Shown here: one piece after another, positions 2,517 through 60,100 of the stretch
Layout of the letters: each line of letters starts with the position of its first letter
Position numbering within the stretch: the first letter of the stretch is position 1
NCBI RefSeq assembly: GCF_000003815.2
Contig: NC_049985.1
Location: forward strand, 1,267,410-1,331,409
Direction: 5' to 3'
Length of the DNA stretch: 64,000 nt
DNA from: Branchiostoma floridae
Lineage: Eukaryota > Chordata > Leptocardii > Amphioxiformes > Branchiostomatidae
Notes under the pieces: model-generated
What the model was told of the DNA's origin: nothing
Seen by the model: only the letters and a program-made list of their open reading frames with translations
Databases searched by the model: none
Program-made: the position numbers and the translations under genes

Positions 2517-2821
2517 ATATGCAGTTTGTTTTGAAGTGTTGTGTTTGTGACCTGGTATTCTGGATACACAAATACAATTATATGGTCATTGGATAACCAT
2601 GGATAGACTTAGAGGATTTTGTGGATCTTCCCTGTTTGTTGTAGTTGTCTAACGTATAAAAAAAAACTGAATGGACAGGAGGAAAAATATGCAGTTTGTT
2701 TTGTAATGTTGTGTTTGTGACCTAGTATTCTGGATACACAAATACAATTATATGGTCATTGGATAACCGTGAAAGACTTAGAGGATTTTGCGGATCTTCC
2801 CTGTTTGTTGTAGTTGTTTAC
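2517..2821. repeat. Two-copy tandem repeat, period 170
   Basis: Copies at about 2517-2652 and 2687-2821 share gcagtttgttttg, tctggatacacaaat and ggatcttccctgtttgttg with few differences, separated by about 35 bases of A-rich sequence. Confidence 0.85.
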
Positions 2822-3769
2822 TATTGTATCTTGGCTCTGCGGGGGACAAAAACCTGCCAGGACAAAGGAATTGGTGTCCATTTTTTCCCTATGCCAATTT
2901 AACACTAAGAGTCAGTAAGACATGTTTGTCCAGGTATGACATACCCGCACCTTTCAGTTCATGATGAAGTTAGGAAGTTTTTCATTCGTCGCAATTGTCC
3001 TCATTCGAACACAGGAAAGCTCTCGGGTGTCGGGGAACAATGAGGAATATAATCGAGCACATTCATGTCCACCTCACCGTGGGGGCCCGGAACACAAGAA
3101 ACACCTTCCCAGACAATTAGATCAAAGTCTTACGGAGAAACGGCATCTCGGCTGGGTACGCGTAAGGTAAATATACCGGGGTTGTTGTTGCCTCCTCGGT
3201 TTACCGCCCTCCATTTGGGCGTGAGGTTACTGTTACCATCGGAGCTGTCACAGATCTGGGCGATGCCGGCAGCGTTTTTCAAAAGTGGACGGGTAAACAG
3301 GAATAGGTCAATGGACTCCTGAAAGGGGTGAAAAAATGGAGATTTGTGGTAGCTTCTAAGGACAATGGCTTTATATATGTGCAAACCATGGCACAATTCG
3401 GCTTTATATTAGCAAGACTTGGAATGTCAATGATTCCAGTACATCTGCTTCACTCCTGTGTGAACTTTTCAGTGACCACCTCCACATGTAAAGACTAACT
3501 GGCCATAGTACCGTCAAACATGTACTAGTGAGAACTTCTACATGCATAAGAACCACCTGTCCATTGATATTATTTTGAAATCTTATTAGAGGCCGATTTT
3601 TGTAAACTTCACTTGTTGACACACTCCCCCTGTAACGCATGTCACTATGGCTTTCAACAGTTTCTTAGTCAGTACATAGGTTAATCCAAATGGCCATTTA
3701 CTTTCAGTTGGGACATAACGAGATAGACAGAAATATTGATGATTGTACATTATCCAAAAATGCCACTGT

Positions 3770-5260
3770 GGCTGTACTTACCTGTCATTACCTTAAGCAC
3801 TTTCGTCTCATTCAATCATGTTTGTCTTTTTAACAAAGAAAATTTCTTACCTCCTGTGGTTCATGAGGACTTTGTTTTCACTTTGTAATTATCGATAACA
3901 GTGAAATAACAATGATCATGCTTTCTAATAATCCAACCTGTTATTGCTATACTCATTCAGTCACACTTGTCTCCTTTGCAGTTGGTTCAGAAGGACTTTG
4001 TAATCATTTTGCAATTATCGATAACAGTTGAAATAACGATGACTGTACTTTTCTAATAATCCAACCTGTTGGTACTATTTCCATTCAATCACATTTGTCT
4101 CCTAATAAAAGACAGTTTCTTACCTCCTGCTGTTCAAGAGGACTTTGTATTCGTTTTGTAATTATCGATAACATTAACAGTTGAAATAACGATGACTGTA
4201 CTTTTCTGATAATCCTACCTGTTAGTGCTATTCTTATCAATCACATTTGTCTTTTTAATAAAAGACAGTTTCTTACCCCCTGCTGTTCATGAGGACTTTG
4301 TATTCACTTTGCAATTATCGATAACGGTTGAAATAACGATGACTGTTCTTTTCTAATAATCCTACCTGTTAGTACTAAGTGTACTATTCTCATTCAATCA
4401 CATTTGTCTCCTTAATAAAAGACCGTTTCTTACCTCCTGCGGTTCAGAAGGACTTTGTATTCATTTTGCAATATCGATAACAGTGGAAAACGATGATGAC
4501 TTGGCCNNNNNNNNNNNNNNNNNNNNNNNNNNNNNNNNNNNNNNNNNNNNNNNNNNNNNNNNNNNNNNNNNNNNNNNNNNNNNNNNNNNNNNNNNNNNNN
4601 NNNNNNGTTCAGAAGGGACTTTGTAATCTTTTTGCATTAATCGATAACAGTGGAAATACCGATGACTGTACTTTTCTAATATCCCAACCTGTTTGTACTA
4701 TTTCCATTCAATCACATTTGTCTCCTAATAAAAGACAGTTTCTTACCTCCTGCTGTTCAAGAGGACTTTGTATTCGTTTTGTAATTATCGATAACATTCA
4801 CAGTTGAAATAACGATGACTGTACTTCTCTGATAATCCTACCTGTTAGTGCTATTCTTATCAATCACATTTGTCTTTTTAATAAAAGACAGTTTCTTACC
4901 CCCTGCTGTTCATGAGGACTTTGTATTCACTTTGCAATTATCGATAACGGTTGAAATAACGATGACTGTTCTTTTCTAATAATCCTACCTGTTAGTACTA
5001 AGTGTACTATTCTCATTCAATCACATTTGTCTCCTTAATAAAAGACCGTTTCTTACCTCCTGCGGTTCAGAAGGACTTTGTATTCATTTTGCAATTATCG
5101 ATAACAGTTGGAATAACGATGATTGTACTTTTGCAATAATCCGACCTGTCACTACATCTCATTCGTTCAGTCACATTTGTCTTCGTAACAAAGACTCTGA
5201 CAATTTTTCGCCTCCTGCAGTTTGTGAGGACTTTGTATTCATTCTGCAATTATTGATGTT
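3770..5260. repeat. Minisatellite-like array, unit about 150 bp, about ten units
   Basis: Marker attatcgataaca occurs at 3891, 4017, 4164, 4317, 4473, 4640, 4787, 4940, 5097 and (decayed) 5252. Steps are mostly 147-157. A 100-N gap (4507-4606) lies inside. Units 2-5 and 6-9 match one another one-to-one with an offset of 623-624. Confidence 0.9.
4507..4606. other. Assembly gap, 100 N
   Basis: Exactly 100 N, the conventional placeholder for unknown length. The sequence after it repeats the sequence before it. Confidence 0.98.
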
Positions 5261-16700: not shown

Positions 16701-19700
16701 ATCTCATTTTTATGTACTCCATCTGAAATCAAAGCTGGACCCATGACCTTTGCACTGTAATCCTCTAAGCGCTCCAAATTTCATTCCACCTAATGCCCAA
16801 ACCCTCGTGGTATCAGTGAAGTCAAGGGGTCAACATTTTGAACACGTTTCCCGTCAGTTTGGCTGATGGCGGGGATTCTGAGGCGGGCTATCCTCGCCCG
16901 AGGCACAGACTTACAGCAATTTATCGCAGGGCGCAGTGGTATTACTATCACTTGTTGGGGATCACGTTAAATGGTTGTGTGAGACCTGGATTTTTGGCAG
17001 AGCATTTCTCCGATTTGGGAAAATCCGTCCCTAATGGTGACTGGGTGTATGTGAGGGATTTGAAGTGGCAAGCTGGAAGCCGGGATTTATTATCAGAGGT
17101 GAAATGTTTATGGTTTACCAGGGATAGCAGCTGTTGAGGGGCACACCGATTGATTTTTTTGGTTCTCTGCTTTTTTTAAATAATAGCAAGCAGACATCAT
17201 AAAAGGCATAGGGAAAGGAGGAGAACTTGAATATGACCGAATTCACTCCATAAAACTGAGACACCAAGCCATAAACCTGGTCCTCTGGCTTTGTTTTCAT
17301 TATGTTTTTTTCAAGTATAGCATATCTTTTATACTTATTCTTTTTTAAATCCGAGAACCAACAAATTAGATTGGTATGGCCTTAAGGGGCACAGTTGTGA
17401 GTTATAGTTTCAGAGGTTGCCCTTTCCTGCCACTAGATTAGGCTCAAGATTAACTGTAGGGATCAGGCTGGGATTCGGGATTAGTGCATTTTGTATAGTA
17501 TTGATTGTGTGGTGAATGGGGGTATTGTTTCAGTATGTGTGAATATGGTATTAGATTCAGTAACATACAGTCAAACCCTTGTATGTGAACAGTCAAGCGA
17601 CTGGACAAAAATGGTCACAGTAGATTATTACTAGATAGGTGACCATATGGTCCTTATGACTATGCAACAAAATATGGTTGACTGACAAGCACAGAGTATT
17701 TCAACTTTTGACCTTGTTTAGGAGGAGATCCACAGATATATAGAATGATACTGATAGTGATAAGCACAATCATGATATTGTGTTTTCTAAATCTAATCCT
17801 TTTTATTCTTCCTGTTCCTCTGAAGACAACTTCCCAACTTCTTGTCAAACAGAAACAGCAATGTGAGCCACAGAAGTACATGACACATTTCCCGTCAACC
17901 GTCGTGTGATTTCTAACCAACTTTTACCCTGTGCCTTTCCAGGTAAAACTGACCCCATCACATACTCCATCCACTCCGGCGACCGGCAGGGATACTTTGC
18001 CATCGACCCGACGACCGGGCGGATCTACACACAGCTCAACCTGGACCATGAGACAGTCAGCAGCCTTCTGCTCAACATCCAGGCCTCCAGCGGAAACCCA
18101 CCCGTCTACGGTCGCGCGCAGGTCAACATCACCATCCTCGACATCAACGACAACCGTCCCGAGTTCACCGTGGCTACGGAGAGCGTCGCCATCACCGAAA
18201 ACGTTTCCCCCGGTACGATCATCTTCGTAGCGAGCGCTCAGGATCAAGATGCCGGTAGCAACGGGCTTGTACGCTACTCGCTCCTCAACAACCAGGACAA
18301 CTTGTTCAGCGTGAATTCCATCTCCGGGGAGGTGAAGATCTTGCGGAGTGTGGATGCGGACGATGACAACCCGTTGCGTTACGAGTTAAAGATCATGGCC
18401 CACGACCAGGGCACACCTCAGCGGTTTTCGAACCTGACCCTATTGGTCATCATTCAGGACGAGAACGACAATGGCCCGATGTTTAGTCCGACGTTCTACG
18501 ACGTCCAGGTTCCGGAGTCCGCCAGCGTGAACTATCGTTTTCTGCAAGTCACCGCGCTCGACCGCGATAGCGGACTGAACGAATTCATCACGTACTATCT
18601 CTCCAACAGCGCGGATTCGCCCAACTTCGGCATGTTCCCGGACGGTTGGCTCTACGTGAAACATCGTCTGGATCGCGAGCTTCGTGACTCGTACTTCCTC
18701 CAGGTTGTTGCCAGGGACAACGGCTCGCCCCCGCGTAACGCCACGGCGAACGTCCGTGTGACGGTCACCGACGACAACGACAATGACCCCAGGTTCACGC
18801 AGGAGTCGTACCACTTTTCATTGGTTGAGAATCTTCCGACAGGCACAACGGTTGGTACGGTGTTCGCTGTGGATGCGGATATAGGGAATAACGGGGACCT
18901 GGACTTCTCCATCATCCCAAACAATTCAAGCTTCATCATAACCACAGGACACCAAAGGGGTGAGTTGTACTTGTTTAGCCACATTTTTAAGGGTAGCATT
19001 ACCCCCACACATTTTGGTGTTGGAAAATGCTTATACAAGTTAGACAAGCAAGCTCGAAGGAGTGAGTGAGTGAGTGAGTGAGTGAGTGAGTAGATGAGTG
19101 AGAAAGGCATAACCACAGGATACCAAAGGGGTGAGTTGTTCATATTTAGTCACATTTTTAAGGGGATCCCCTCAATTTTGGCATTGGAAAAAGCTGACAC
19201 AAGTTAGACAAACAAGGTCGAAGGAGTGAGTGAGTGAGTGAGTAGATGAGTGAGAAAGGCATAACCACAGGACACCAAAGGGGTGAGTTGTTCATATTTA
19301 AACACATTTTTTAAGGGGATCCCCTCAATTTTGGCATTGGAAAAAGCTGACACAAGTTAGGCAAACAAGGTCGAAGGAGTGAGTGAGTGAGTGAGTGAGT
19401 GAGTGAGTGAGTGAGTGAGTGAGTGAGTGAGTGAGTGAGTGAGTGAGTGAGTGAGTGAGGAGTGAAAAGTTTTTGAGAGATTCTTAGACTAGAAAATGCT
19501 CCTTATGCTCTTGGAGGCTCATCTGCAAAAGAATGATCTTCAAGAAATCGTTGCATATTTCTACCAAGTAAAAAAACTGTAACACTGTCTAAATGTGTTA
19601 GTTTTTGTTGCAAAGCCCATCATATTATACACAAAAGCGAAAATGCATGGCATTGTGTGTATTGAAAGTCTTGTTCTGATGTCTTGTAGGTGTGATCAAG

Positions 19701-22700
19701 ACCAAGAGGCCTCTTGACCGCGAGACCACGGCCAGGTATGACCTTGTGCTGAAGGTCAGGGACCGGGGCACGCCTCCCCGCACCGCCACGGCTACGCTGC
19801 ACATCGTGGTGGAAGACATGAACGACAACGCGCCTTACTTCAGTCACAGGTAGGGACGCAAAACATGATTTATTTTGTTTCAAACTCTGCAACTTAATGC
19901 CAAAGAAAGCTTCTAGAGGGCCCAAACTTATGTCACTTTTTCCTAAGTGCAAGAGCTTATCTACCATCTAAAAATCGTGACCATACATGTAGCTTGTTCA
20001 GAATTAAAAACATGTGATAGAAAAATCCTTCCAAATTGTTGCATTGGATCTCTGATTATTAACACGGTGACCATACATTTTATTCCCTCATAGTTCAGAG
20101 ACTTCTTCTGGAGTTTTGAAACTGTTACTGTCCAAGTAAAGATTTTTGCAAATTGCCATTGACAATTTAATCATGACACGCAACGCGGTGCCTTTTAAAG
20201 GGAAAATCATTCTTACTCTGGTCTTATAACCTTTTATCTGTATCATATGAAAATCAATATTTATTGACACGATCGGCGTCGTGTGTGGAAGATAAACGCT
20301 TGCGGAACATGTTTGAGCTATGAAAAGTTTCCTGCCGAAAGTTAGATAAAATGTTGTCACGTTCAGTGTCAAATATGCAGGTCATTTTATCAGCGCACCT
20401 ATTATTGATCTAAAAGTAGCACCAGACCACACATCACACAAACAGTGACGTGTATCAATTAAAGTTTCATGTTGCAATTTAAAGAATGTCTTGCTACTCT
20501 GGAAAACCATTTTGCCACAAAGTGCCTGTCTCAATTTTGCTTTACTCTAAAATCTTTAAAATTTGGTTCTGGAAATGGTTCTATGTCAAATGTCTTTGCA
20601 AGTGATTTTACAAAACTGGAAGTAAAAAATAATCTCTGCACTCACAATTTCAATGATCATTTATAAGTTTAAAGCTAGGAACACAAATGTTGGGCATTTG
20701 CTGTCTATAAAAGTCTTTTGCATTTTGAATTAGAATGGATTGAATACTGACGTTTTGAAGAGTTCACATTCATACTTATCTCGACATTCATGATTTTCAG
20801 GTAGTAGAATAAAAGAATGGTATGTTGAAATAAATATAATGTGGCTTGAATCAAGAATTACATCAATCCACTTTCTATAGAAAGACTTTGACACCTTGAA
20901 TCACTCATTAAACAGGCAATGTTTGCGTAGCATTTCGTTGGCAGTGTCAACCATTGACATGTTTGGTCAAAGGGTTTAAAAGTCACCAGACTTATTTCAT
21001 TGTTGTCTGCTATGTTAGGGCCTGGCCGTGTACCCAGATAAGGGAACTACGGGAAAGCTATGTTTGGGCCAGACATTCGGCTGTTTGGCCACAGAAACGT
21101 GGTTTTATTGAAAACATCCGTGTGTGCACTGTTTGCCGAATATGTCAGTGACAGATCGAGAAGTCACTGGGATCTCTTTGAAAATGGCCTGCAATATTAG
21201 GAAACGTGCATGATGAAAACAAACAACCAATTAGACATTTTTGTTGGCATTTCTGCCTTGAAATTGTAATCCACAGAGGATATTGTGTAATAAAGCCACT
21301 TTTTATGTACTCTTGACTACGATAATTTTTACCATTGCTCCAAGCATTAACAATCATTTCCCTAGCAGCCACCTGTGCCAAAGTCCCTTAAGTTGTCATT
21401 TGTATATTTTAACATGGACATGCTATGGTCTTTTTTTTTGTGACGGATAGTTTGTGATATAAGGAAGAAGTAATGTGTGTTTGGGCCTCCTAGCAGCTTG
21501 CTAGATGGAACCGCAGGAACATTTTTATCAAAATCTTCCATGCATGATGGAACATAGGAACGACAAAATTCCCGTGACATTCACTATGCAGGTAGCTTTG
21601 GCAGAGATGTTTTAAGGCAGGTGTCACAACGTTATCTACAATACCCGCACTATAACTGGTAACAGATTGAGACACACAAACGATATTGATCAATTTTCGT
21701 TGATATGGACACAGAGGACTCGACTGTTCCCCTTATCAGAATCCACCCCTAATGGGTTTTAATAACTCTCCATACCTAAGGCATCCTTATTGAGCTGTTT
21801 GTCTAGGCTTTATCTCCATGTGTGTCCCCTCTAATTGAGACTTGATGTGTGATTGTGTTGAAGTATTGTTTTAGCGTTCAGGACAAATTGTGCCTCTGCT
21901 TGGCATGTTGGGCTGTTGAACTTTGTTCCGCTGTGGTTGACTCAACGGTCGTGCATCTTGTATTCATAACTTCTATGGATACTTTTTGGCACATAAGCTA
22001 TGTATTATTGGTTCGTGGCTGATATGTTTTCGCCAATGTGTCAAAGAAATTTTATTGATGGCCCTCGTAGAGCAAGTAAGCCAAATGCAAATATTCTGCA
22101 AAGTGCATAATTCGGATACTTAAAAAGAAGGTCTTTTCTCGTTAGTTCATCAAACATGGATAGATTCCATCAGATACATTTGTAGGTTGTTCTCTTTTAA
22201 TCAAATCAGCGAGATCTGGAATGTTTCCCAGACCTATTCAACTCAGTACAGCCAAACCTGTCTAAATGACTACTGAAGGGACCATTAAAAATGGTCAAAG
22301 TTGACAGGGTAGAATTCCTAATGCTTGTCAATGAGAAAAATAATTGGGTACAAGAAGTAGTCACTAGTAGTACAGGGTTTGACTGTATTACTGAAAAGTG
22401 ACATTGTCAATATGTTTGCTGTAAAGAAGCCAACTACTGCTACATAAGGACCACTGTGGTATTGTGACTAGGGGTGGGTACCGGTACAGAAAATTCAGGT
22501 CCAGGTCCCGTTCAGGTCCAAAGGATCAGGTCCAGGTCCGGACCTGAACCTGGACCTGATTCAGTATGACTCATACCAATGGTCCATTTCACTACAAAGA
22601 AATCTGTTTGGTGGAGTATTAGACTTACACTGGCGTTTTAAAATCCAACAACGCTGACTGCACCTGTGACTTGGTAGTAATTACTATAAACTCTTCTCTC

Positions 22701-25700
22701 ACTTCACTCGTTATTTTCTTCCATCTGCAAGCACCAAAACGTGTGAATGCCTAATCAAATAATCTGTTAATTTTCTAATAGGTCCAACATCCGGTCCACC
22801 TAATTTTTTCAGGTCCGGTTTTTCTGGACTGGTCCAATAAGAAAAAAAACGGTTTTGTACCGGTATGCTGTACCGATACCCAGCCCTAGTTTGCTGTAAA
22901 GAAGCCAACTACTGCTACATAAGGACCACTGTGGTATTGTGACCATATTTTGCTGGTTGCCTAGATAGTTTTTCCCATGGACACAAGCATTCAGAATACA
23001 GATGAAGATGGTATGGCCTGTAGTAAATGTTAAAAAACAAACACTTGTTTTGCCATTCGCAGTGGTCTGCAACTGGGAAAGATACAGGAACAGCAGCCCA
23101 ATGGGACGGACAGTTCTTCTTTTACAGCCTCTTAAACAATATAATGTATCTTTTTTTACAATTTTTGGTTGCAAATGTTTGAATATTGAAAACCCCTTTT
23201 TCCCCTCCACAGTGGCCAGTACCTGGGAGAGGTGGAAGACCACCAGCAAAGATTGTCTTTTACAGCTTCTTAACAAAACAATTAAAATCTTTTCCCTACT
23301 GTTCTTAATCTTGGTTGCAAATGTTTGAATATTGAAAAACCATTTTTCCCCTTCCACAGTGGCCAGTACCTGTAGTTGTGAAAGAACAAGATTTTTTTAT
23401 ACAGCTTATTAAACAGAACAATATATTTCTTACTGTTCTTAATCTTGGTTGCAAATGATTGAATTGAATATTAAAAACCCATGTTCCCCCCTCCACAGTG
23501 GCCAGTACCTGGGAGAGGTAGAGGAGCACCAGCCCAACGGGACTGAGGTCATCAGGGTTCTGGCTGACGACCCAGATAACGGAGAGAACGGCACCATCAC
23601 GTACAGGCTCGTCACAAGTAAGAAGCACTCCTTTTAACCGTTTCTGCTGAATATGAAGATGCTGTACTGTATTAGAACAGTTGTATTGTAAAATATCTTG
23701 TTGAATATATGATGTTATGAAGAATGACCAATTATTATGATTATTAGAAACAATACTCTAATGACATAAAGGAATCACTGTACAACAAAATTGCTTTTTT
23801 TAAGAATGTATTTTTGTTCCTGCTATATGTTACTTTTTAGGTCTCAAAATTAATTTTTGGCAATACATCTACCCTAAAAATCTAAGTGTGCAGCAGAGAA
23901 TGTCAGCAAAACCTTATAATACATGCACCTTACTGATTCTGGTCATAGCTTAACTTCTACAGGTAACTTAAAAAAGAATTTAAAGCAAATAATACAATCA
24001 AGGTTTTTTTTATAGAATACTTTCTGACCAGCTTTGAGTTCTGCTAATACCTTATAACACTGCCCATCTTCCACAGGCACACCTGGGATGAACGGAGAGG
24101 AGATGTTCAACATCCACTCCCAATCTGGCCTCATCACCACCAACGCTCCTCTGGACCGCGAACAGAAGCCGACTTACGTGCTGTCGGTGGCCGCGGTCGA
24201 TGGGGGAACACCACCCCGCGAGCGTACGACGTTCGTGCACATCCATGTAACCGATAGCAACGACAACGCACCGGTGTTCGTCAACTCCACGATTTCCATT
24301 GAGGTTGAGGAGGGGTTGGAAGCAGGTTCGTTGTTTTTTTAAAATTACAAACCATTCTTTTTATGACTTACAAAGTCAAATTAAACATACACATTCAGAG
24401 TATGGAACAAATAACAAACAAATGGAAGGACATAATCATACAAGTAACAAAACAGACAGATAAGGAAACAGTGAAAGTGCATTGTTGAGATCCAGAAAGG
24501 AACAAAATCGAGAGACAAACCCTTTCTTAACTGTTAACTTACATTTGTTGTTCCATCCATGATACAAAAACAATGGATTGTACAGAACGATACAGAAAGA
24601 GATCCCTAAGAAGTGTAACTATATACACATTATTGTTTTTCTAATGCCATTTTACCCCTTTTCTAACAAGATTTTACCCGCCCCTTTCTAGGTTCAACGA
24701 TTGGTTCGGTCCACGCCCTTGACAACGACGAGGGTGAAAACGGGCGCGTGTCCTACGAGATCATGCAGGGGAATCTGTATGGCACGTTCGGCGTGGACCG
24801 AAACACAGGACGGATCTTCACCGCCAAGGAGCTCGACTTCGAGCTCAACGCTCGCTACCGTCTGATCGTGCAGGTATGATATAACCTAGAGCCTTTGGGT
24901 ACTGTATTATGACCACTAAATTGTCCTGAAGAAGATGATGACAGTAGAAAGGCGACTCCTAAGAGTAAGACAAGATTCTGAATGCCTTTGAAAATTAACC
25001 CAAGAGACTACCTAGAACAGTAAGAAGTGGTCACTAGTACTGTATCATGTACTGTATATGATGACCACTGAAAGGCCCTAAAGGATATGACGGCTGTAAA
25101 AAGGCAACTCCTAAAATAAACAGGATTCTGAATACCTTGGAAAAATAACCTAAGAGACTACCTAGGATGGTAAGAAGTGGTCACTAGTACTGTCATGTGC
25201 TGTCTTCTTTGCTCTGGGACCAAGTAGGGTACCTTACAGATACCATTTGTGTGTCTCTTAGCTCTGAGGATCAGGTTGTTGCGACACTGGATGGACTTGT
25301 GTTGTTTATTGCTCGACAATATATAGCCAATGTATTATACAATATACATCACATTGCCTGACGTTTTATCCTTTAAAATTCTTGACTTGACTTGACTTGC
25401 AGGCACAGGACAACAATGCTCGCAGTCAGAAAAGCAGCACAATCTACGTCAACGTCAACGTGATCGACATCAACGACAACGCGCCGACATTCCGCAGCGA
25501 TCCCGTCATGTTCGGTCTCCAGGAGAACACGGCCGTGAACAGCACGGTCTGGACGTTTTCCGCCACGGACGTGGACAGCGGGAGAAACGGCGCGGTCCGC
25601 TACCGCATCATGGACCAGCTGCCCAACGGGAACAACTTCCGGATCGACTCGGTCACGGGGGCGCTACAGACCACCACGCCGATCGACCGCGAACAGACCA

Positions 25701-28700
25701 GCCAGTTCACGCTCGTCGTCGAGGCGACGGACCAACCGGTTAATCTCTCCCACGCGAGAACGAAGACCACCACTGCGAGGATTCTCGTAGAGGACGTGAA
25801 CGACAACACACCCGTGTTCGTGTCGCGAACGGAGACCTACGTTATGGAGGATGAGCCGGTTGGTTACCACGTGATGTACGTCATCGCTGTTGATGATGAT
25901 TTCGGGGACAATGGTCGCGTCACGTACCAGATCGTCTCTGGGAACCAGGGCGGGAAGTTCCTGCTGGACCCCAACACAGGTGCGCACGGAAACCTTGTTA
26001 TTTATTTTATGTATCATTATGTGTTTTACTTGTTAGGCCACACCGATTTGTTTGCTTGTTCTTATACATTTTATGGCAAGAACATGGCTTAACATCATAA
26101 AAGCAGAGGCCAGGTACATGTAGGAATATGATTGTATATTCACACTTTAAAAATAAGTGCACCAAGGCTTAACACTGGTTGTCAGGCTTTTTTTTTTTCA
26201 TTAGGATCTTAAACATTTTTTTCACAGTCAGAGAACCTACAATTTGATTGGTGTGGCCTGAAGCTTTAAGTGAAAGGGTAGACAAAACTTCTTTGTAACA
26301 AGTAATCCTTTAATTAAAACAATTTTATAAGCAGCAAGTAAGAGCACTGATATAATACAACAATAATGAAGCATAATCAATGCAATAACAATTGTACATG
26401 TAACACCTGTTTCATATTACTACACTACCTTAAATGTTTCCTTCTAGAAACACTAACTGATTAGCACCAAACATTTACAAAATGAATACTCTTCAATCAC
26501 AGCAGCATATACAAAACATAGCCTAGTTGTGGGGCCACGAAATACTGAAGTGTGGCTCTCTTTTGTAAACGGTTTTCAACTTGGCATTTCCTGTACTAAG
26601 ATCAGTTTCACCCATTATTAAAAGCTAGGCAATTAAGAACTGGCTGTCTGAGTCTGGATTGGTACACTTTATAAACATACAAGCCAAAGGGCATTGTTGT
26701 CCAAGTTTTTAGAATAGTCACGATGTGTCTGGAATGGTGATTTATTGGGTTTTCTATGGGAAGCAATCAGAAGCAAACAGTAATCATTTCCAGACAAGTA
26801 GGGCTCCTTATTTCTTGTTCTAACTGTCACAACAGTTTATTTCCTTGGGGTTTGGACATTCTGAGCATCATGAAAATAGAGTGATAGAAGGAAAACTTGA
26901 AACTGACTTTATTCACCCCCTGAAAGTGTTTATATTGTCCTATGTACAGACTTCCCTCTTTTTTCAATATTAAACTTCCAGCTTAGCATAATTTTGCTTT
27001 GTAGTGTTTTTTTTTTCAATCTGAAAACCATCAAATTAAATTGTCAGGACCACATTCGGTTTATGGAAGTCTCGGACTGCAGAAAGCAAAACTTGTACTT
27101 ATTCTAGACAAACATGATTAATGAAACTTATGTATTACCTTTCCTAGACATATGAATTTGGCATTCTGTCAAAAATGAGCTCACAAAGCTGGTAGGTTCT
27201 GTTTGGATGTGAGAGAGGTTACGGTCAAGTTGTCCGTGTGCATTCCGTGGATTCTGAAACAGTCTGTCTGGGAGAAGTTATCAGTTGTAATGAATTAGAC
27301 CCTGGGGTGGATTTAGGGCCGACACAACCTGTATGAAAGAAAATAGTTTAAAAGTTTTGGTCACCAGTTCAGGCCAAACTTACTTTAGGAAGCTAAAAGA
27401 TACAATTCATCTTTCCAGTACATCTGCTAAGGTATGGTCTGTCGTAAATGGTTTAGTCTGCTTAAACTTGAAGATTCTTGATAAGACTGAAGTGATAATT
27501 GAAAAGCACAGTTATAGCACTACTATGGGATTATGAATTCTGTTTGGTTGCAGTATACTAAAGAGAAAGAATTAAAGTGCTAAGATGTAGAAGAATAAAG
27601 ATTAAAACAGGTGATACTGATATCTGAAATTTCTTAAGATTGATGAAACTTGATAGATTAAAGCTTAATGATTTGTTTCTAACACACACAGGCTTGCTCG
27701 CGATCGAGAGGAGACTGGACCGTGAAACGGAGTCGCGTTACGTCCTGAACATCACGGCGACCGACCACGGGACCCCGTCGCGGTCGGCGTCGCACCTCAT
27801 CACGATCCACGTTCGCGACGTGAACGATAACCAGCCGCGCTTCCTGCAGGACACGTACCAGGCCAGCGTCTCCGAGAACCAGAGCCCCGGAACCTCCGTG
27901 ATTCAGATCACCGCGCTGGACGCAGATGCAGGTCAGTTCCTTTAGTCATGTCTGTTTTTACCTTACCTTTACCTTTACCTACTCCCATCCTCATGTCTGA
28001 GGGTCGGGGACTATGGTAGCGTCCAGTATCAGCCTCCTCCACTCCCTTCTGTCTCTGTTTTTACCACCATGTGTGAAAAGGTTGTGTTGTTGATGAAGGT
28101 CAGATATTCAGGTACAATAAGATAAGCCCAAAAGCAGCTACTCAAGGAACTGGATATGGTTTGGACAGACGTTTCAGATGTCATTCATAGTTAGGGTATA
28201 AAAGACCAATTTCTCCCAGATCACTTAAGTGTCACTGACGAAAGATGGTGGGTGCCAACCGAAACGTCTGACCATTTCCAAAATCATATCCAGTTGCTGG
28301 ATTAACTGCTTTTTGGCTAATAGGTTGTATCGTCTTCTACATTGATTGTATGGCCATTTGCCTTGCATCTTACCTGAGCCTTGAGTTCAGATTTTTTTTA
28401 CTTATTCAGTTATTGGTAACAATTTATGTCCTTCCCAAGAAGCGAATTCCCGTCCTTGGACAGAGGGAAGGGTCCTGTTCGTTCTTAAATGTTAGCGGTA
28501 GATATTACGTACATCTGCTACCATATGGCCAACATGGCATGATCTTAGCTGAGAAAAAGCGTGCCCAAATAATTCAGCCCTTTGAGTCTCCCTAATGGAT
28601 TGAGTGGGTGGTACGAGATCCGAGTCTTCTTTGAGAGAAATCTGGAAGATTATATGCTAGAAATTTGGGCTTTTAAGTGTGTGAGAGGGTTTTCTTGGCT

Positions 28701-34700: not shown

Positions 34701-37700
34701 TGGCACATGGAAATCTAAATGTTCCCTCACATTCAAACCTCTGCCTTTGTTAAACACTAGTGTAACCTTCAAGGTTTCACTCCAACCAGGCCTTGCAGAT
34801 ATGTATCCAATAAACAACCTTGCTTATCATTAACCAAGACCGATCCTGAATTTTTTCATGGGCCAGTAAGGTGGGTGGTACATTTTAGACTGAACGTTAC
34901 ATGTACATTGATCACTTTCCGACCTCTAAGACTTGTTTTCTTCAACACCGACTCATATAACGTTCCAGTCTTCACTCCAACCAGGCCTTGTGGATATTTA
35001 TTCTATGACTATGAACAATCTTGCTTATCATTAAAGAAGACCCATTTTGAATTCTTATATGGGTATATAGTAAGGTGGGTGGTACTGAGTGTACATAGAT
35101 CACTTTCCGACTTCTTGTTTTCTTCAACACCGACTCATATAACGTTCCAGTCTTCACTCCAACCAGGCCTGGCAGATATGTATCCTATAAACAACCTCCC
35201 TTATCATTAGCTTAAACTCATGAGTCCTAAACTCTGGAATATTTATGTGTGCCCAGACTGCAGTGGGTGGCACAGATCAACCCTAAATGTTTTGCCGTCT
35301 TTCATCGGTGTTTAGTGCAGACAAAGTGCCTGAGACTTGAGTTACGCATACCGGAAGGTCCTGGGAGATTAGACTGTCTTAGCTAGTGTGATGTCACAGG
35401 GTACATGCTGTAAGGATGGAAAAATTGAAGATGTTTTTTCTGGAACACAACTGTTACACATAACTGTTACACACAACTGTTACACAATTGACGTTTTGAG
35501 GTTTATCTTCTTGTCTCTCTTTGTGCATGTATGTATGGTTTGCTTGTTTTCAAAGCTCCTGTGAAATTAAAGCAATAGTCATACCAAATATCGCAAAGAT
35601 CCAGTTAAAGATAATGGCTTAAGTGATGGAGGCATCTCCCCCCCCCTCCTCAATCTGTGTGTGTGTGTGTGTCTGATTATTGTGTGCCTTTGTGTTTCTA
35701 CCGTTCTCTATGTGCAGCCTTGCCATCTTCAAAGCTGCTATTTTTGTCTATGCGGCTGTAAAACTCATTGCAAAACTGTATGAACAAACTTACAAAGGGA
35801 ATGAAGTCTTGGATTGTAAACATGAGTATAACCTGTGCTGTTTTTTTCTTCCTTCTACAGCGTATGCTCGAGACGGAGCCTACCCCTCACGGTTCGGCTT
35901 CACCTCGGTGGTGGTGAGCGTTCTCGACACCAACGACCACGCGCCGGTGTTCAAAGACGCAGAGTACATGATGACCGTACCAGAGAACCAGCCGAACTAC
36001 GGGGTCATCCACACTGTCGTGGCGTACGACGCAGACATCGGGACCAACGGACAAGTCAGATATGAGATAATCGGTACGAGATCTTTTTTTGGCTATTGTC
36101 TTGATTCCTTAAACTAGTAAGTAAAAGTTTGTACGTTTTTGGTGCAGAATAGAGCATGATTGTCTAGATTGTGGGGTATTAGTATTCTTTGCTTGCAATT
36201 GTTTAAACATAATACTTTTTTTGTTTCTTCTTCTTTGTCTGGAAGACAGATGTATTATTTTTGTTAGCACTAAGACTAACTGTTAACTGAGTATAAGCTT
36301 TGTTTACAAACTATAATCTTTTTTATCAGAACAATAAGCTCTGTTTAGAAGGGTTTTCAATTCTTTCAATACACCTGATGGCAAACTTTTATCAACAGAT
36401 GAAAACTGTTTGTTTGTTTATACTTAAGTAGATGATAAGATATCAGAAAGGATGTGAAGAATGCTGGAGTGATGCATATTCATACATTGATTTTCTTTGT
36501 CCATATCTACAAATGATTATGATGTTTTAGAGCTATCTTCTCATGTGGACCAAATCATGGTCATAGTTTGTTTTGAATATGGTTTGGCATGTCCAGATAT
36601 CTTTGTTTTGTTCGAAATGTCGGGTAAGTTTCAAATGGACCAAATCAGCACTGTTCTCATGTCCTCATCTACAGATGTTAACCTATTGGGAGAAGTAAAT
36701 AGATATAGTTTTCAAATTTCAAATATCTTTGTCTCCATCCTCAGATTTGTAGATGCTTCTAAGAATTTGTACATGTGATTCTGATGGTTTCAGTACCATA
36801 TCATTTTAGATATCCTCTCAAATAGACCAATCAGTACCAAAGTCAATTTGTCTTCATCTACAGAACTGTATTAAGATTTATGATTTTGAATATAGTTTGT
36901 AATATTCAAACCTCTTTGTCTCCATCCTCAGATGGAAACGTCGGGGGTAAGTTTGCGGTGGACGCGGTTACGGGCGAGCTGTCGGTGATCTCTGACCAGG
37001 CTCTGGACCGGGAGACGGTTCCGCTGTACCACCTGATCGTCCAGGCCCACGACAACACAGACGCGCCCCGCACCAGCACCACCAACATCACCGTAGCCGT
37101 GTCAGACGAGAACGACAACAACCCCATCTTCACCGATCCATCCTACCAGCAGACTATACAGGTCAGTAGAAAGGCCAGTTCAGTTGTTACACAAAGTATA
37201 TACCTACCTCACATTTCCAAACGGGCCCAGCCAGGACGCGTTTAGGAAAGAAAAGTAGCAAGGCAGCTTTTAGGAAAGAAAAGTATGATATATAAAAGAC
37301 ACCAAACTACACAAGACATAAAGAGAATAGTTGTGGGTCAGTATGTGTCCGTTTTCACCCAAGTGTACAATTATACCTTAAAAAGTTTCTATTTTTCGTT
37401 TCCTCAAACAGATCAGCCAGGATTCCACATGCAGATCCTCTTTACTCTGTAATGTATCCACAGCAGAATCATACAAGTTCTGATGTTAAACTTTGTAATT
37501 GATAGAGATTTGGTACGGTACCCAAACAGCAACTTTCGGTTAAAGAAACAGATTGAATGTCCAGTAGGGCTGTGTACCTAAATACCCGTACCTGTACCGT
37601 ACCTGAAAAATTGTTTAGGTACAGGTCCGGACCTAAACATCTGTGTACCTGTACCTGTACCTAAACACACTAAAGCACTTGAGGACACCACTTTTAAAGG

Positions 37701-49697: not shown

Positions 49698-52600
49698 TGA
49701 AAAGGCGCCGGCAACAAGCAAAAAGCTCCACGTGTATTTCTCAGCGCCACCGGTGGTAACTTGCTTTCCCATCAGCCTCGGCACCTCCTCGTTCCAAAAC
49801 TTCATGTTGGACTCCCGCAGCTTGACGTCAGCAGATGACGTCACGTCCAGCTTCAGGTAGGATTGGGATGACGTCATGAACCGTGGCCAGGTCACCAGGT
49901 TACGCATGCGCGCTGCACCGGTGGAGTCACTGGGGTCTCTGTGAGATGAGATGAGATGAGATGAGAAAATGAGGAAATAGTTAAACAAACAAGTCGAAAA
50001 AATATTAGATAGCAAGGCGGAGCGATCTTTTCTTGAGAAATAGTGGGAATGGACAGTCGAAATCCAAATCAAAGTCCAATCTTTGTGTTGGAAATTACTT
50101 CTTACTAATTAAATCTTGCTTCAGAGTATGATTTGTGGGACAAAATTAGACTTTCGCCTATCAAAGAACATATCTCCACTTACCCGTTAGCGGCGAAGTT
50201 GACCCAGTACGCCATCATGTCCAGACTCAGGTCCCTCTCCTCCTGGGTGAAGCTGTACTTCCAGGAGTTGCCGGTGTCGTCACGCAGGAGCGGGATGCCG
50301 AACATGTAGAACAGGTCGTCGCCGTGGTCCGCTTTCGCGTAGGAAGGTCTTTCCGGGGAAACCGACGTGGTGTGATGCTGGAACTCGTACTGATAGACCC
50401 GGGCAGTGTCGTGCGCTGTGAGGGAGGGACGGAAAGTTTACATTTCAGAATGAAGCAGACAGACCTAACGCTAGTTCACCTTTTTCCGTGGGTTAACCTA
50501 TATCCGTTGTATTTGAAAATGGGGGATTTTAGTGTATTAAGTCGGACACTGTTTTCAAACATTTTGAAGAAACTGCCATCTAAAATCGCCTTCCGTCGAC
50601 TTGATACCTCTAAATACCCTGTTGATAAATACATCGGACATAGGTTATCCCACGTATAAAGGTGAACTAGCGTTAATCAACACAGTTAGAGGTAGACAGA
50701 AAAATGAAAAGAGATGGGTTGATATCAGAGAATTGACAGGACTCAGCCTAGCTGAATCAGACCCTCCGGAAAGCAGAAAAACAGACGGTTGGAAGGATGA
50801 TGACAGAGTATGTTTGGATGTACCCAACGGCCAACCCGACTATAGTACTAAGGGCTTAGTATCCAGGCAGGTTTACTAGTGGCATAAGATAGCTGACTAA
50901 GGAGTACAGCTGGCCAAAGGGGGTCAACAGCCACGCCATGCCAGTAGCCAAACATACTCCTAGGTGGGCTTCACTCCTAGTCATACTATCTAATGCTACC
51001 GTAGGACCTGCTTGAAGATCGAAAGGACTATAAATGACGATGAGATGAGCATACGGTAGAGTCTCTGACATACCTGCCACAGCCTGCGCCATGAGTACGG
51101 TTGTTGCGGTGAACCTGTTGTCGGTCATCAGCTGGATAAACCGGTCACGAGTGTAGATCGGGTCGTCCGAGTCGGGGTTCATGTACTGGTCTATCACGGG
51201 CTGCACGATGTTGTCCACATCGCCGTCCTGGGGAAAGGCAAGAGGAAAAAATGAAAAAAAAACAGGGGGCTGGGAGAAAAACTTGTATCTGCCTTCATTT
51301 ACTCCATGAAAAAGTTGTGTGTACCTAGGAACAGATTTTCCTCTCAGAATCTGTTATTATGTTGAACAAAGCAGGGAAACAGCAGCAGACATCGTTTGGC
51401 CTAAACGTAACTCTTACAGGAAATTGTGCGGCGACAAAGTTGAGTTGGGCCGGCAGAATAGCCGACAACACAGTCCTGTTCAGACCGTCCGCGGTCACTT
51501 CGGGAACTGTGCCCAACAGCCCGTAACTGAACTCGCCGTCGGTGGTGCCAAGGAGGTAGTCTACCTCGTTAACTTCCTTCTTGTACATAATGTCCTGGAT
51601 CAAGAGGGAAATAAAAACACATTAGAATACAGATTTCCTCTTTCGAATGAGGTAAAATGAGTACCTAACTTATATTGTTGGATGTTTGGCCATGGTAAAC
51701 CCTAAATTATCATACATCAACCAACACCGGCTATCGCCAAACAGTCCCATTCGATACAGACACTCTCTGCCGCGTGAGGTACATCTATAAACTGAACAAC
51801 ACAGGACCAGGAGATAGCACAAGACAAGACAAGACTAGATAGAAAAAACATACCCACAGATCGTCTGCGTCTGGTAAGAAAGATCCTCCGACTATCGGGA
51901 CTGGAGCATCAAGTTCCAACACGTCGTGGGCTGGTTTGCTATGGACGAGCAAAAAAAAAAGATTATTGTTTGACAATAAACTGATACGGTGTTGGAAGGA
52001 CTTAAACTTATAACGCTATAACGCTACTTTTTACGTGTAGAACATTATAAACCGCCGCAGGCAGATCATCTTAGCCGAACTCACATGCACGCAGATGCAC
52101 GCCCACTAGGAGTGGGTACCGGTACGGTGTACCTTTACAAAACTGTCTTTCTTGTCCGGACCTGGACCTGATCCTCTGGACCTGGACCGTACCTGTACCT
52201 GAATTTTCTGTACCGGTACCCACCCCTAACGCCCACCCTACTGCAGTATTATCTGTGCCTTCACATCTTTTACTTGCTACAGGATGGCAACCGCGGAATA
52301 TGGTACCAGGGCTGTGTGGCCCGAGGGGTAAGGAGCTTGGCGTCGCCCTATACACCATGTGGTGTGGGAGGGTTTCACCTTGAACTTTGATAACACATAT
52401 ACATATAGATGTAGAAAATACCTTCGTAGGCAGCTCATCATGTCATCGAAGGAGGTTGTGGTGCAGTTTAGCGAGGCGGCTAGGGTCTCCGTTTTTGTGG
52501 TGTCTCCCCTGCGGCTGGCCCCGAGCCCGGCCACGCCGCTCTGAGAGATGGCCCGGCGGTACAGCCCTCGTGTCTCCGGGGACATGACGAGCAGGGAGAC

Positions 52601-57108: not shown

Positions 57109-60100
57109 AGAGAGAGGGGGGGGGGCATACTGTTGGCGCGCCATAGTGAGGCAGAGGAACAGACAGAGACAGAGACATATTCATATTTATCTATCTATTT
57201 ATTGATGAACTTCGATGCGAAATTCTCACCCGTCCAGGCGGAGTTGTGGTCCCCACCAAGTATGGAGAAGTGAACGGGGTGGAGTTACCAACCTCGTTCA
57301 TAGGGGGCGCTGTGTTTGACCGGATCTACACCTTCAAGGGGATTCCCTACGCCGCTCCGCCTGTGGGGGACCTCAGGTGAGCCCGATGTGATATAAAAAA
57401 AAAAAGAAACGCATCAGCAAGGAAAATTGAAACAAAAATGAGAAAGGACATTCTTTAGAAAAGATGCTGAACGTTCTATTTCAAAGCCTTGTGGGTAAGG
57501 AAAACCAGATCTTTAATGCTCTTGTTTGTGGAATTAAAAAAAGTAGGTTTAATTCAATAAGCAAAACAAGATTGGCAATAAAAACATCATTTCAATGGCG
57601 CCGATTGTCTTTTTCAGACAGGTGAACATAAGACAAACGAAAAATGAAAGATAATTGTAATAGATGTTCCAGATAATGAAATTCTTGTTTTTTCAATGTC
57701 AACAGGATATTCCTGTCATGTACGTATTTTTTCTGTGGGTTCTGAGACAACATCTAGCTTCTCTTGGTAACTGAAGAGGGGTATGATGTAGTCATGACCC
57801 CTTCCTAAAAATAAGGACATTAAATGTTATACTCTTCCTTGGTTACAAACCGTCAGCTAGTCTAGACTAACTAGCTCTTGAGTGGTGGTGGAGGGGGCTG
57901 GAGCTTGCATGACCCAAATTCCTGCCATTAAAATTCCTCGGGACTAACTTCTCACATTGCAAACATGTCTGTGCACTGGCATTCCTGTGGAAAAATGCCT
58001 TGCAATTCCTAGAATTTTCGCAGACTGAACTCAATAATATACCATTTGGCTCGCTCCTGAGGCGTCGCCAAAAAAGAATTCCTTCTCCAGCATTGTCCTT
58101 GTCAAGAGGATTATACCTTCAAACATGCACCGGTTCGTTGGGCAGCCATGGCAGTATGTTTTCCACAAGTAAGATTAGAATAAATGACAAACTTCCCATC
58201 TCCCCAGATGGCGCCCTCCCCAGGACCCGGCAGGCTGGACCGGAGTCCGGGACGCCGCCCAGTTCGGAGCCCGGTGCCCGCAGATCGTGGACGCGAAGGC
58301 ACCACCAGACTCACCTCTGTACGAGGTCCTCACGTATCGCAGCAACAGCAGCAGCGAGGACTGCCTGTTCCTGAACGTCTACACGCCTAACGTGGCTTCC
58401 ACTGCGGATCTGCCGGTAAGTAGATAGAGTCTGAGAGTTGGTGGTCGGGGGGAGAGGTAGACAGAGAAGGTGGGAGAGGGAGACGGACAAACAGATAGAC
58501 AGACAGACAGTGAGCTAGAGGGGGATGGGAGAGAGGGGGAGAAAGAGTAAGGGGCCGGAAGAGAGACAGCCTGAAGGAGAGTGGGAGAGAGGAGGAGAGA
58601 GATGGAGAGAGAAAAGGAGATACTAGTAGTAAGACAGGGGCAGAGGGAAAGAGATATAGTAGTACTATTACTACTATTGCTTCAAAAAACTTGCAACGTT
58701 CAGTTGTTTGTAGTAGACTGTAGTAGTAATGTGTTGCTTGTTGTTGATATACTAGTATGTGTTATACTGCGTTGTCTTGCCCAGGTCATGGTATGGATAC
58801 ACGGAGCTGCTATGGTGATAGGCGCCGCCGATACGTATCCGGCCGAGATCCCCACGTCACTCCATAACGTCGTCATGGTAACCATCAACTACCGGCTGGG
58901 TAACCTGGGCTTCCTGCCGACCCGGGGCGCGGAAACTGACAGCAACGTTGGGCTTATTGACATGGTTAGTATCATCACTATTAAACCAATAGCCTATACT
59001 AGCTTGCCTAAAGAAGTTATCATTATTAGACACGAAACAATTGTGTCATTCTCTTTTTTTGACAAGTAGTCGTCTTTGGAATTGTCTGGAACATTTTAGT
59101 CGCGTTTTTTGTCAATCACATGATCTTTTTCATGATAGGTGAAAGCTCTCCAGTGGGTACAAGGCAACATCCGGAACTTCGGAGGAGATCCCGACAGAGT
59201 CACCATCTTCGGGCAGTCCGGCGGAGCCTGGGCCGTCTCCCTGCTCGTCATGTCTCCCATGGCAACGGGACTGTTCCACCGGGCCATCTCTCAGAGCGGC
59301 GTGGCCGGCCTCACGACCACCAGGAGAGGCGACGTCACCAGGACAGAAAATCTCGCTGCCAGGGTCAACTGCACCACGAACTCCTACGATGACATGATGA
59401 GCTGTCTGAGGAGGTAACCTACACCAGTTGGTTTGAAACTCTTCAACAGACTTGTGAGGATGCGTAAACGGTTGTACATCTGCATAAAAAGTAACGTTAC
59501 CGTTATCTGAGAGTACTCTACACCAGTTCGTTTTAAAACTAGGTATTCAGGGACGTATCCAATGTGTTAGAAATGTTGAAAATTCTCTTTTCTACAAAGA
59601 AGTCTGTCTTATTTCTTCTCCCAGCAAGCCAGCCCAAGACTTGTTGTTTCTGGAGATTATTCCGATAGTTGGAGGACGGTTTTTACCAGACGATCTATGG
59701 GTAAGTTAGTTTTCTGTTTTTAATATGGTCTCGATCTCACGGCAATATGTTGTAAAGGCCCGGTTACATACGACGTGCGATTGTTTTACGACCTCAACCT
59801 GAGGGTATTTGTGATAGTTCTGCATGTGTACGGCAAATTCAGCTGTCTTGTACCGGAGAAGGATGTTTCAGATCCTGTTCGGTGCACAGCCTAATTGGAA
59901 ATTCTTCAACATCAAAATCATACGACTTCCTACGAACGTGAACGAATCCTAAGATACAGTTGGTGAGATCTGCTTGCACCAGGATTGAGCCCTTTTCTAA
60001 GTGTGGTGGGTTCTTGAGCGTGCTGGGGACCTGCATGCTGGGGGTTCAAACACAGATCCTTTAAATTTGGATTTAAAAATACATTACCCTAACCACAATC

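Follow-up and report, generated by a model that had tools for sequence, protein, structure and literature searches.

The length of the target-site duplication (TSD) left by a DNA transposon is used as a fixed signature for classifying these elements, since the transposase is taken to set the spacing of the cuts. How, then, could a member of a family that duplicates 8 bp come to lie between direct repeats of 55 bp? The question is raised by a locus in a 64,000-nucleotide stretch of the Branchiostoma floridae genome (contig NC_049985.1, positions 1,267,410 to 1,331,409, assembly GCF_000003815.2; this whole stretch is hereafter the window), in which a hAT-type miniature inverted-repeat transposable element (MITE) at 22469-22888 is enclosed by two copies of a 55-bp sequence, A, the complete arrangement (A-MITE-A) occupying 22414-22943. 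A preliminary description of the window had reported identical 55-bp repeats exactly abutting a hAT-like MITE, in the geometry of a TSD but about seven times too long, and our analysis bears out each of these observations.

An exact 55-bp duplication in a family with 8-bp target-site duplications

The MITE starts with TAGGGGTGGGTACCGGTAC and ends with GTACCGATACCCAGCCCTA, and the reverse complement of the right end, TAGGGCTGGGTATCGGTAC, pairs with the start as an inverted repeat at 12 of the 14 terminal bases. With TAGGG at its start and CCCTA at its end, it carries short terminal inverted repeats (TIRs) of the kind found in hAT elements, whose termini follow the consensus YARNG. The two copies of A are identical at 55/55 positions, with no extra base between A and the MITE at either side. 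Because the bases beyond the repeat differ (T 5' of the left A against A, the last base of the MITE; C 3' of the right A against T, its first base), the duplication is exactly 55 bp long and has no microhomology at either join. Such an exact match adjoining both ends of the element is not due to chance. The 8-mers flanking the MITE, ATTGTGAC on the left and GTTTGCTG on the right, agree at only 2 of 8 positions, so this copy lacks an 8-bp TSD and none is concealed within A-MITE-A. The right A is directly followed by CATATT, without a second ATTGTGAC.

The window and a set of longer loci, together 353,759 bases with overlaps counted, were scanned for exact direct repeats of at least 11 bp adjoining inverted-repeat ends (at least 11 of 14 bases). 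A-MITE-A was the sole match in the window, and the same locus recurred in six overlapping loci; beyond the window, the scan returned five other candidates, with repeats of 11-23 bp. The predicted secondary structure of A was no different from that of shuffled sequences (z -0.01).

As proposed in the preliminary description, the flanking duplications of other copies were measured genome-wide, using four whole-genome DNA searches with three different copies as queries and about 40 places scored per search. Two incomplete matches were dropped and C2:13362495 was left out before counting, which gave the best 84 other full-length copies among about 2,600-3,800 unscored candidates; they are about 91-100% identical to the queries, mostly 433 bp long and, as best matches, biased to young copies. 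An exact 8-bp TSD was present in 79 of the 84, an 8-bp TSD with one mismatch in three (L056, L146, L158) and a 7-bp TSD in one (L064), while one copy had none (L154/L155, C12:4321486-4321918). In this last copy the right end finishes with its final ten bases (CCCAGCCCTA) present twice, which makes it another type of aberrant junction within the family. The family thus has the 8-bp TSD of hAT MITEs; for comparison, a Drosophila survey of hobo gives a modal 8 bp in 1,196/1,198 insertions. Inspection by eye also gave 8-bp duplications for the two related elements named earlier in the window: ATGTCCAG for the one near 37565 and ACGCCCAC for the one at 52107-52228. Relatives of the latter, a 122-bp short element, were excluded from the TSD count: among 30 loci examined, an exact 8-bp TSD was found in two (the window's 52107 copy, L094, and L116), and in the remaining ones one boundary, the start or the right end, could not be placed, in many cases because the locus ran in the other orientation. 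The 55-bp duplication is therefore real and unusual for its family (1/85 copies examined).

Target half-sites and the proposed insertion

The sequence into which the MITE inserted could be compared with relatives, since the right flank is part of an older dispersed repeat present at 27 other places at 73-84% identity. Twenty of these 27 were examined (about 68-84% identity in the pieces crossing the joined site). When the flanks joined through one A were compared with them by BLAST, the joint was crossed in 20/20 relatives, by 7 to 55 bases into A, and in three (L031, L020, L024) a single piece ran from left of A to right of A. At a threshold of ≤3 mismatches, the core of A occurred once in 17/20 relatives and four times in L018, where the counterpart of A forms a 71-bp tandem array (L018 185-424), and was not recognisable in two (L023, L027). 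Because 17 of 20 relatives hold the core once, a single A is likely to be the ancestral arrangement, as far as these sequence comparisons reach; they are also compatible with a private tandem duplication that preceded the MITE at this locus. The left flank alone matches only the A-MITE-A locus, and at full identity the flanks match no other place.

The target motif of the family, derived from the 79 exact TSDs, is palindromic, about AW-N-N-GTC-N-N-GAC-N-N-WT: A/T-rich at -4 and -3, with G at +1 (53%), T at +2 (72%) and C at +3 (45%), plus the mirror image. It follows the preference nTnnnnAn, with T at position 2 (A at 7) in 72% of the TSDs, both strands pooled, and together with the TIRs and the 8-bp TSD of the family it upholds the assignment to the hAT type.

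In a normal insertion, one half of the target touches each MITE end, and the possible histories of A-MITE-A place different demands on these halves. Joins made at a distance of 55 bp require a match to the motif only in the outermost half at each end of A. A history that began with one normal TSD at the end of A requires a match over the whole of ATTGTGAC and leaves the start of A unconstrained, and one with two ordinary targets requires a match in both 8-mers. The motif was scored with 0-3 and then with 4 flanking bases, after an earlier score made from 42 TSDs. With 4 flanking bases, one outer half-site scored 1.86 bits (44th percentile of true halves, 5.5% of window positions as good) and the other 5.71 bits (97th percentile, 0.05% as good), their sum of 7.58 being reached by 0.03% of window positions, whereas the inner half-sites needed by normal 8-bp targets scored -1.63 and -1.86 bits (6th and 4th percentile). 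The corresponding point sums were 7.58 for the 55-bp stagger and 4.08 for each of the one-target and two-target histories, and the bootstrap mean log2 ratios were 3.5 (2.0-5.0) over one target and 3.8 (2.1-5.7) over two. With 0, 1, 2 and 3 flanking bases these ratios were 2.0, 2.0, 1.1 and 2.6 over one target, and 3.1, 3.3, 2.8 and 3.9 over two. Joins 55 bp apart are thus favoured about 4- to 15-fold at four of the five widths and 2-fold at the weakest, moderate evidence that points in the same direction at every motif width.

Across motif widths, end pairs as good as those of A occur at 0.03-0.2% of positions, a rarity that speaks against a break unrelated to the transposase. The preliminary description had suggested a widely staggered break filled by repair; its outline, a wide stagger followed by filling, agrees with our data, but a random break does not, because the ends of A hold target half-sites and the joins therefore look made by the transposase.

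We tentatively favour, at a little short of an even chance, one aberrant insertion by a hAT transposase with its two strand transfers 55 bp apart. The MITE ends would have been joined to opposite target strands at this distance rather than at 8 bp, and fill-in of the two resulting 55-nt single-stranded gaps would have generated the duplication. The observations behind this reading are the exact geometry, with both joins at the exact MITE ends and zero microhomology, the intact ends themselves, the single-copy relatives of the target, the target-like half-sites at both joins, where the inner halves fit the motif poorly, and the 8-bp rule of the family; from these we infer a single insertion as the source of both strand transfers, a hAT transposase as their agent and gap filling as the origin of the duplication. 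In retroviruses, the equivalent event is described as uncoordinated integration. For xenotropic murine leukemia virus-related virus (XMRV), a 273-bp duplication is reported in 1/15 integrations and related by the authors to impaired coordinated integration, and for human endogenous retrovirus K (HERV-K), insertions with duplications of 13-450 bp are reported.

A 55-bp duplication with a correct half-site at each end suggests that the two strand transfers are separable, as in some retroviral integrations. If this is true, transposons would be a direct source of short direct duplications, and a rare tail of long TSDs is predicted, which scans with an 8-bp filter would miss. A more specific version, which we find rather doubtful, is that hAT transposase reads two independent half-sites and joins the ends in separate pairs of active sites of its multimer, for example in different dimers of a Hermes-like tetramer of dimers, which might yield rare duplications of tens of bp. 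Long duplications would then be a minor product of normal hAT transposition and not accidents of repair.

Several points weigh against a single insertion with widely spaced joins. A-MITE-A is a single locus, and an exact flanking duplication longer than 8 bp was found in none of the 84 other copies sampled, 44 of which were inspected over longer flanks and 40 with 70 bp per flank only, so that longer duplications would escape in the latter. In Hermes, the 8-bp spacing is reported to match the distance between the two active sites of one dimer, which means that 55 bp would need an exceptional geometry. The XMRV case had one damaged viral end, whereas both MITE ends are intact here, and the HERV-K authors allow later rearrangement as a source of long duplications. 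The support from the target motif is itself modest and varies with flank width, the interval of the ratio over one target reaching across zero when 2 flanking bases are used. Among 192 possible starts, that of A ranks only 17th. The test also treats the two half-sites as independent, although in normal targets they show a weak correlation (Spearman 0.22, p 0.049).

The age of the MITE copy would add to these points if taken at face value. Its terminal branch is the longest of 45, at 0.040, or about 0.024 after discounting what we read as a misaligned indel; uncalibrated, this predicts 2.6-4.4 differences between the A copies, with a probability of zero differences of 0.07-0.01, and would favour a duplication younger than the MITE. 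However, the TSD pairs of 83 other copies showed 3 mismatches in 663 positions, while about 15 were expected from the mean terminal branch of 44 copies. TSD pairs thus diverge about five times less than terminal branches suggest, and branch lengths overstate the age of insertions in this family. After calibration on TSD mismatches, the probability of zero differences in 55 bp rose to about 0.59 (0.22-0.90) with the branch of 0.024 and to 0.42 (0.08-0.84) with that of 0.040, which removes the argument for a younger duplication. The identity of the two copies of A speaks neither for nor against a duplication simultaneous with the insertion, and the earlier statement that perfect identity implies a recent event is weak, since a duplication dating from the insertion itself would still be expected to show no differences in about 40-60% of cases.

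Competing explanations

The main rivals are later repair and alternative transposition. A two-step history, which we consider unlikely, would begin with a normal insertion at ATTGTGAC, at the end of A, followed later by a transposase cut at the right end only, after which the right flank would be extended by 47 bp from an unbroken template (the empty homologue or the left flank) and rejoined bluntly to the MITE. Gap-repair products are known from excision sites of Ac. Such a history accounts for the exact MITE ends, the zero microhomology and an arbitrary start of A, it is the one favoured by the uncalibrated branch length, and as a full target ATTGTGAC scores well (within the top 0.8-1.4% of window positions and at the 56th-63rd percentile of true TSDs). 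Against it, the resemblance of the start of A to a target half-site would be a coincidence (5.5-15% of window positions, depending on motif width, score as high), and the inner half of ATTGTGAC, taken with its flank, is unusual for the family, at the 6th percentile.

Alternative transposition would start from hybrid ends: the left end of the MITE and the right end of its copy on the sister chromatid would enter a site 47 bp away as a pair, and the outcome would be a direct duplication with one MITE at the joint, a product that we derived ourselves by analogy with P-element hybrid element insertion. We regard this as less likely still. It requires only normal 8-bp reactions, and tandem direct duplications in which the element marks the exact joint are known to arise from hAT elements; A-MITE-A shows the precise bounding of the repeats by the transposon that is expected of duplications from reversed-ends transposition. 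Reversed ends should also leave another element at the outer limit of the duplication, sharing an 8-bp TSD on one side, but no element of the same MITE family lies beside 22414 or 22943 and no 8-bp TSD is present, and the three natural maize cases differ from A-MITE-A in having two elements. Hybrid ends would moreover need GTTTGCTG as a second target, a poor one (11-32% of window positions as good, by motif width, and only 7-12 of the 79 true TSDs scoring as low), and a footprint-free rejoining of the donor, given the direct passage from the right A to CATATT. The maize study (PMC3744419) credits sister-chromatid transposition with inverted duplications and deletions.

The same motif deficit burdens an origin by allelic recombination, which is improbable in our view. 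Here the same MITE would have stood at the start of A in one allele and at the end of A in the other, and a crossover inside the MITE would have produced A-MITE-A. This would give clean junctions without a footprint, in a species described as polymorphic, with two highly divergent haplotypes that were assembled apart (PMC7269912), but it needs two insertions in the same orientation 47 bp apart, one of them at the poor target GTTTGCTG.

The preliminary description had also offered insertion at the joint of a pre-existing tandem duplication. A normal 8-bp insertion into a tandem array of A is excluded: a tandem pair with the usual TSD would place the same 8 bp at the end of the left flank and the start of the right one, and the observed 8-mers, ATTGTGAC and GTTTGCTG, do not match. 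What is left is an insertion into a tandem A without TSD, or with a later exact loss of 8 bp, to which we give very little weight. One of the 20 relatives of the host repeat (L018) does have the corresponding segment in tandem, and one of the 84 other MITE copies (L154/L155) does lack a TSD, yet both rarities would have to coincide with an insertion at the exact joint, and 17 of the 20 relatives have one core of A. Furthermore, L060 (element 1501-1933; C12:7171157-7171589), a copy whose insertion site was a tandem array of older diverged units of about 86 bp at 77% identity, keeps a plain 8-bp TSD, and its flanking repeats predate the insertion. The suggestion thus fares poorly.

An artefact of assembly has to be weighed as well, 55 being a common assembler word size; single Sanger reads could span the 530 bp. 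The assembly appears to merge two divergent haplotypes with HaploMerger2 (PMC7269912), and a mis-join of haplotypes at a heterozygous insertion, by a switch at the MITE end, could in principle repeat the flank. We see only a slight chance of this, since by our own reasoning such a switch should repeat only the 8-bp overlap and not 55 bp. According to the same source, the assembly was built from about tenfold Sanger reads with ARACHNE, for which an artefact of a graph of 55-base words is not expected. In the lists of exact repeats drawn up for the window and the loci (up to 12 pairs per single locus), the sole exact 55-bp pair besides A lies in a GAGT simple repeat. A short-read graph artefact was rejected on both grounds, the Sanger/ARACHNE assembly (PMC7269912) and the lack of a 55-bp pile-up among the exact repeats listed.

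Least credible is that host repair captured an excised MITE in a break unconnected with the transposase, whose ends were staggered by 55 nt. This would give the same geometry, and exact ends through release by the transposase, but would leave the ends of A random with respect to the target motif, against their observed rarity. Mobilisation by a long interspersed nuclear element (LINE) as 'retro-DNA' was rejected because both TIRs are intact; retro-DNAs are described as fragmentary elements without TIRs.

Surroundings of the locus and comparison with known systems

The MITE probably lies in an intron, between two cadherin exons on the same strand (Table 1). A search of six frames gave four + strand frames with cadherin domains in the window (17867, 25391, 39738 and 43002), all within 17867-45815; the one at 43002 also has a cadherin cytoplasmic-type motif, and a carboxylesterase-like frame follows at 58575-59069.

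Table 1 Features at and around the A-MITE-A locus (positions in the window).
Feature	Position	Strand	Basis
Cadherin-domain coding exon (stop-to-stop frame), upstream of the MITE	17867..19069	+	Pfam Cadherin, E 1e-58
Older dispersed repeat hosting the MITE, interrupted by the MITE and the second A	22380..22997	+	Limits approximate, BLAST pieces
Left copy of the 55-bp repeat A; final bases TATTGTGAC adjoin the MITE, better target half-site	22414..22468	+	
hAT-type MITE, 420 bp, imperfect TIRs TAGGGGTGGGTACCGGTAC / TAGGGCTGGGTATCGGTAC	22469..22888	+	Direct reading and genome copies
Right copy of A, identical to the left; first bases GTTT adjoin the MITE, typical target half-site	22889..22943	+	
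Cadherin-domain coding exon, downstream of the MITE	25391..26092	+	Pfam Cadherin, E 7.3e-35

Other duplications occur in the window. Downstream of the MITE, 23039-23533 is a degenerate tandem array with units of roughly 140-150 bp, and 4072-5095 is a tandem duplication with a period of 623 bp, within which stretches of 104 and 268 bp are identical. An exact direct repeat of 57 bp (34932-34988 and 35114-35170, 182 bp apart) has more similarity just upstream of both copies; no inverted-repeat ends were found on its insert, and it looks like a local duplication and not a target duplication.

Among known systems, the duplications described in maize resemble A-MITE-A in that a direct duplication has a hAT element at its precise joint. 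The study in question (PMC3744419) reports nine new Ac-induced tandem duplications from reversed-ends transposition with a hAT element at the joint, and 3 small tandem duplications among 7,611 hAT insertions; its three natural cases have two elements, either fractured or, where intact, sharing an 8-bp TSD on one side, whereas A-MITE-A contains a single element and lacks both an 8-bp TSD and a footprint. For the P element of Drosophila, hybrid element insertion, named as a mechanism in the same paper, is expected to give a single element between flanking duplications (in part our own derivation), but it depends on a further normal target site and on rejoining of the donor, and neither the motif nor the junctions lend much support to these here. 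A literature search limited to titles and the openings of abstracts returned no hAT case that combines a single element, long duplications and half-sites at both ends.

Consistently with a place among the hobo/Hermes-like hAT MITEs, the element has TIRs starting with TAGGG, an 8-bp TSD in its family and a GTNNNNAC-like target motif, comparable to the reported preferences of hobo (GTNCGNAC / NTNNNNAN) and Hermes (nTnnnnAn); it departs from them in that the 22469-22888 copy has 55 bp in place of 8. With the uncoordinated integrations of XMRV and HERV-K, the locus shares a direct duplication far longer than the rule of its family, those being retroviruses whereas the element here is a DNA transposon. 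Pre-integration alleles are reported to have been found for two HERV-K sites, whereas the present genome, apparently one merged haplotype, shows no empty allele of A-MITE-A.

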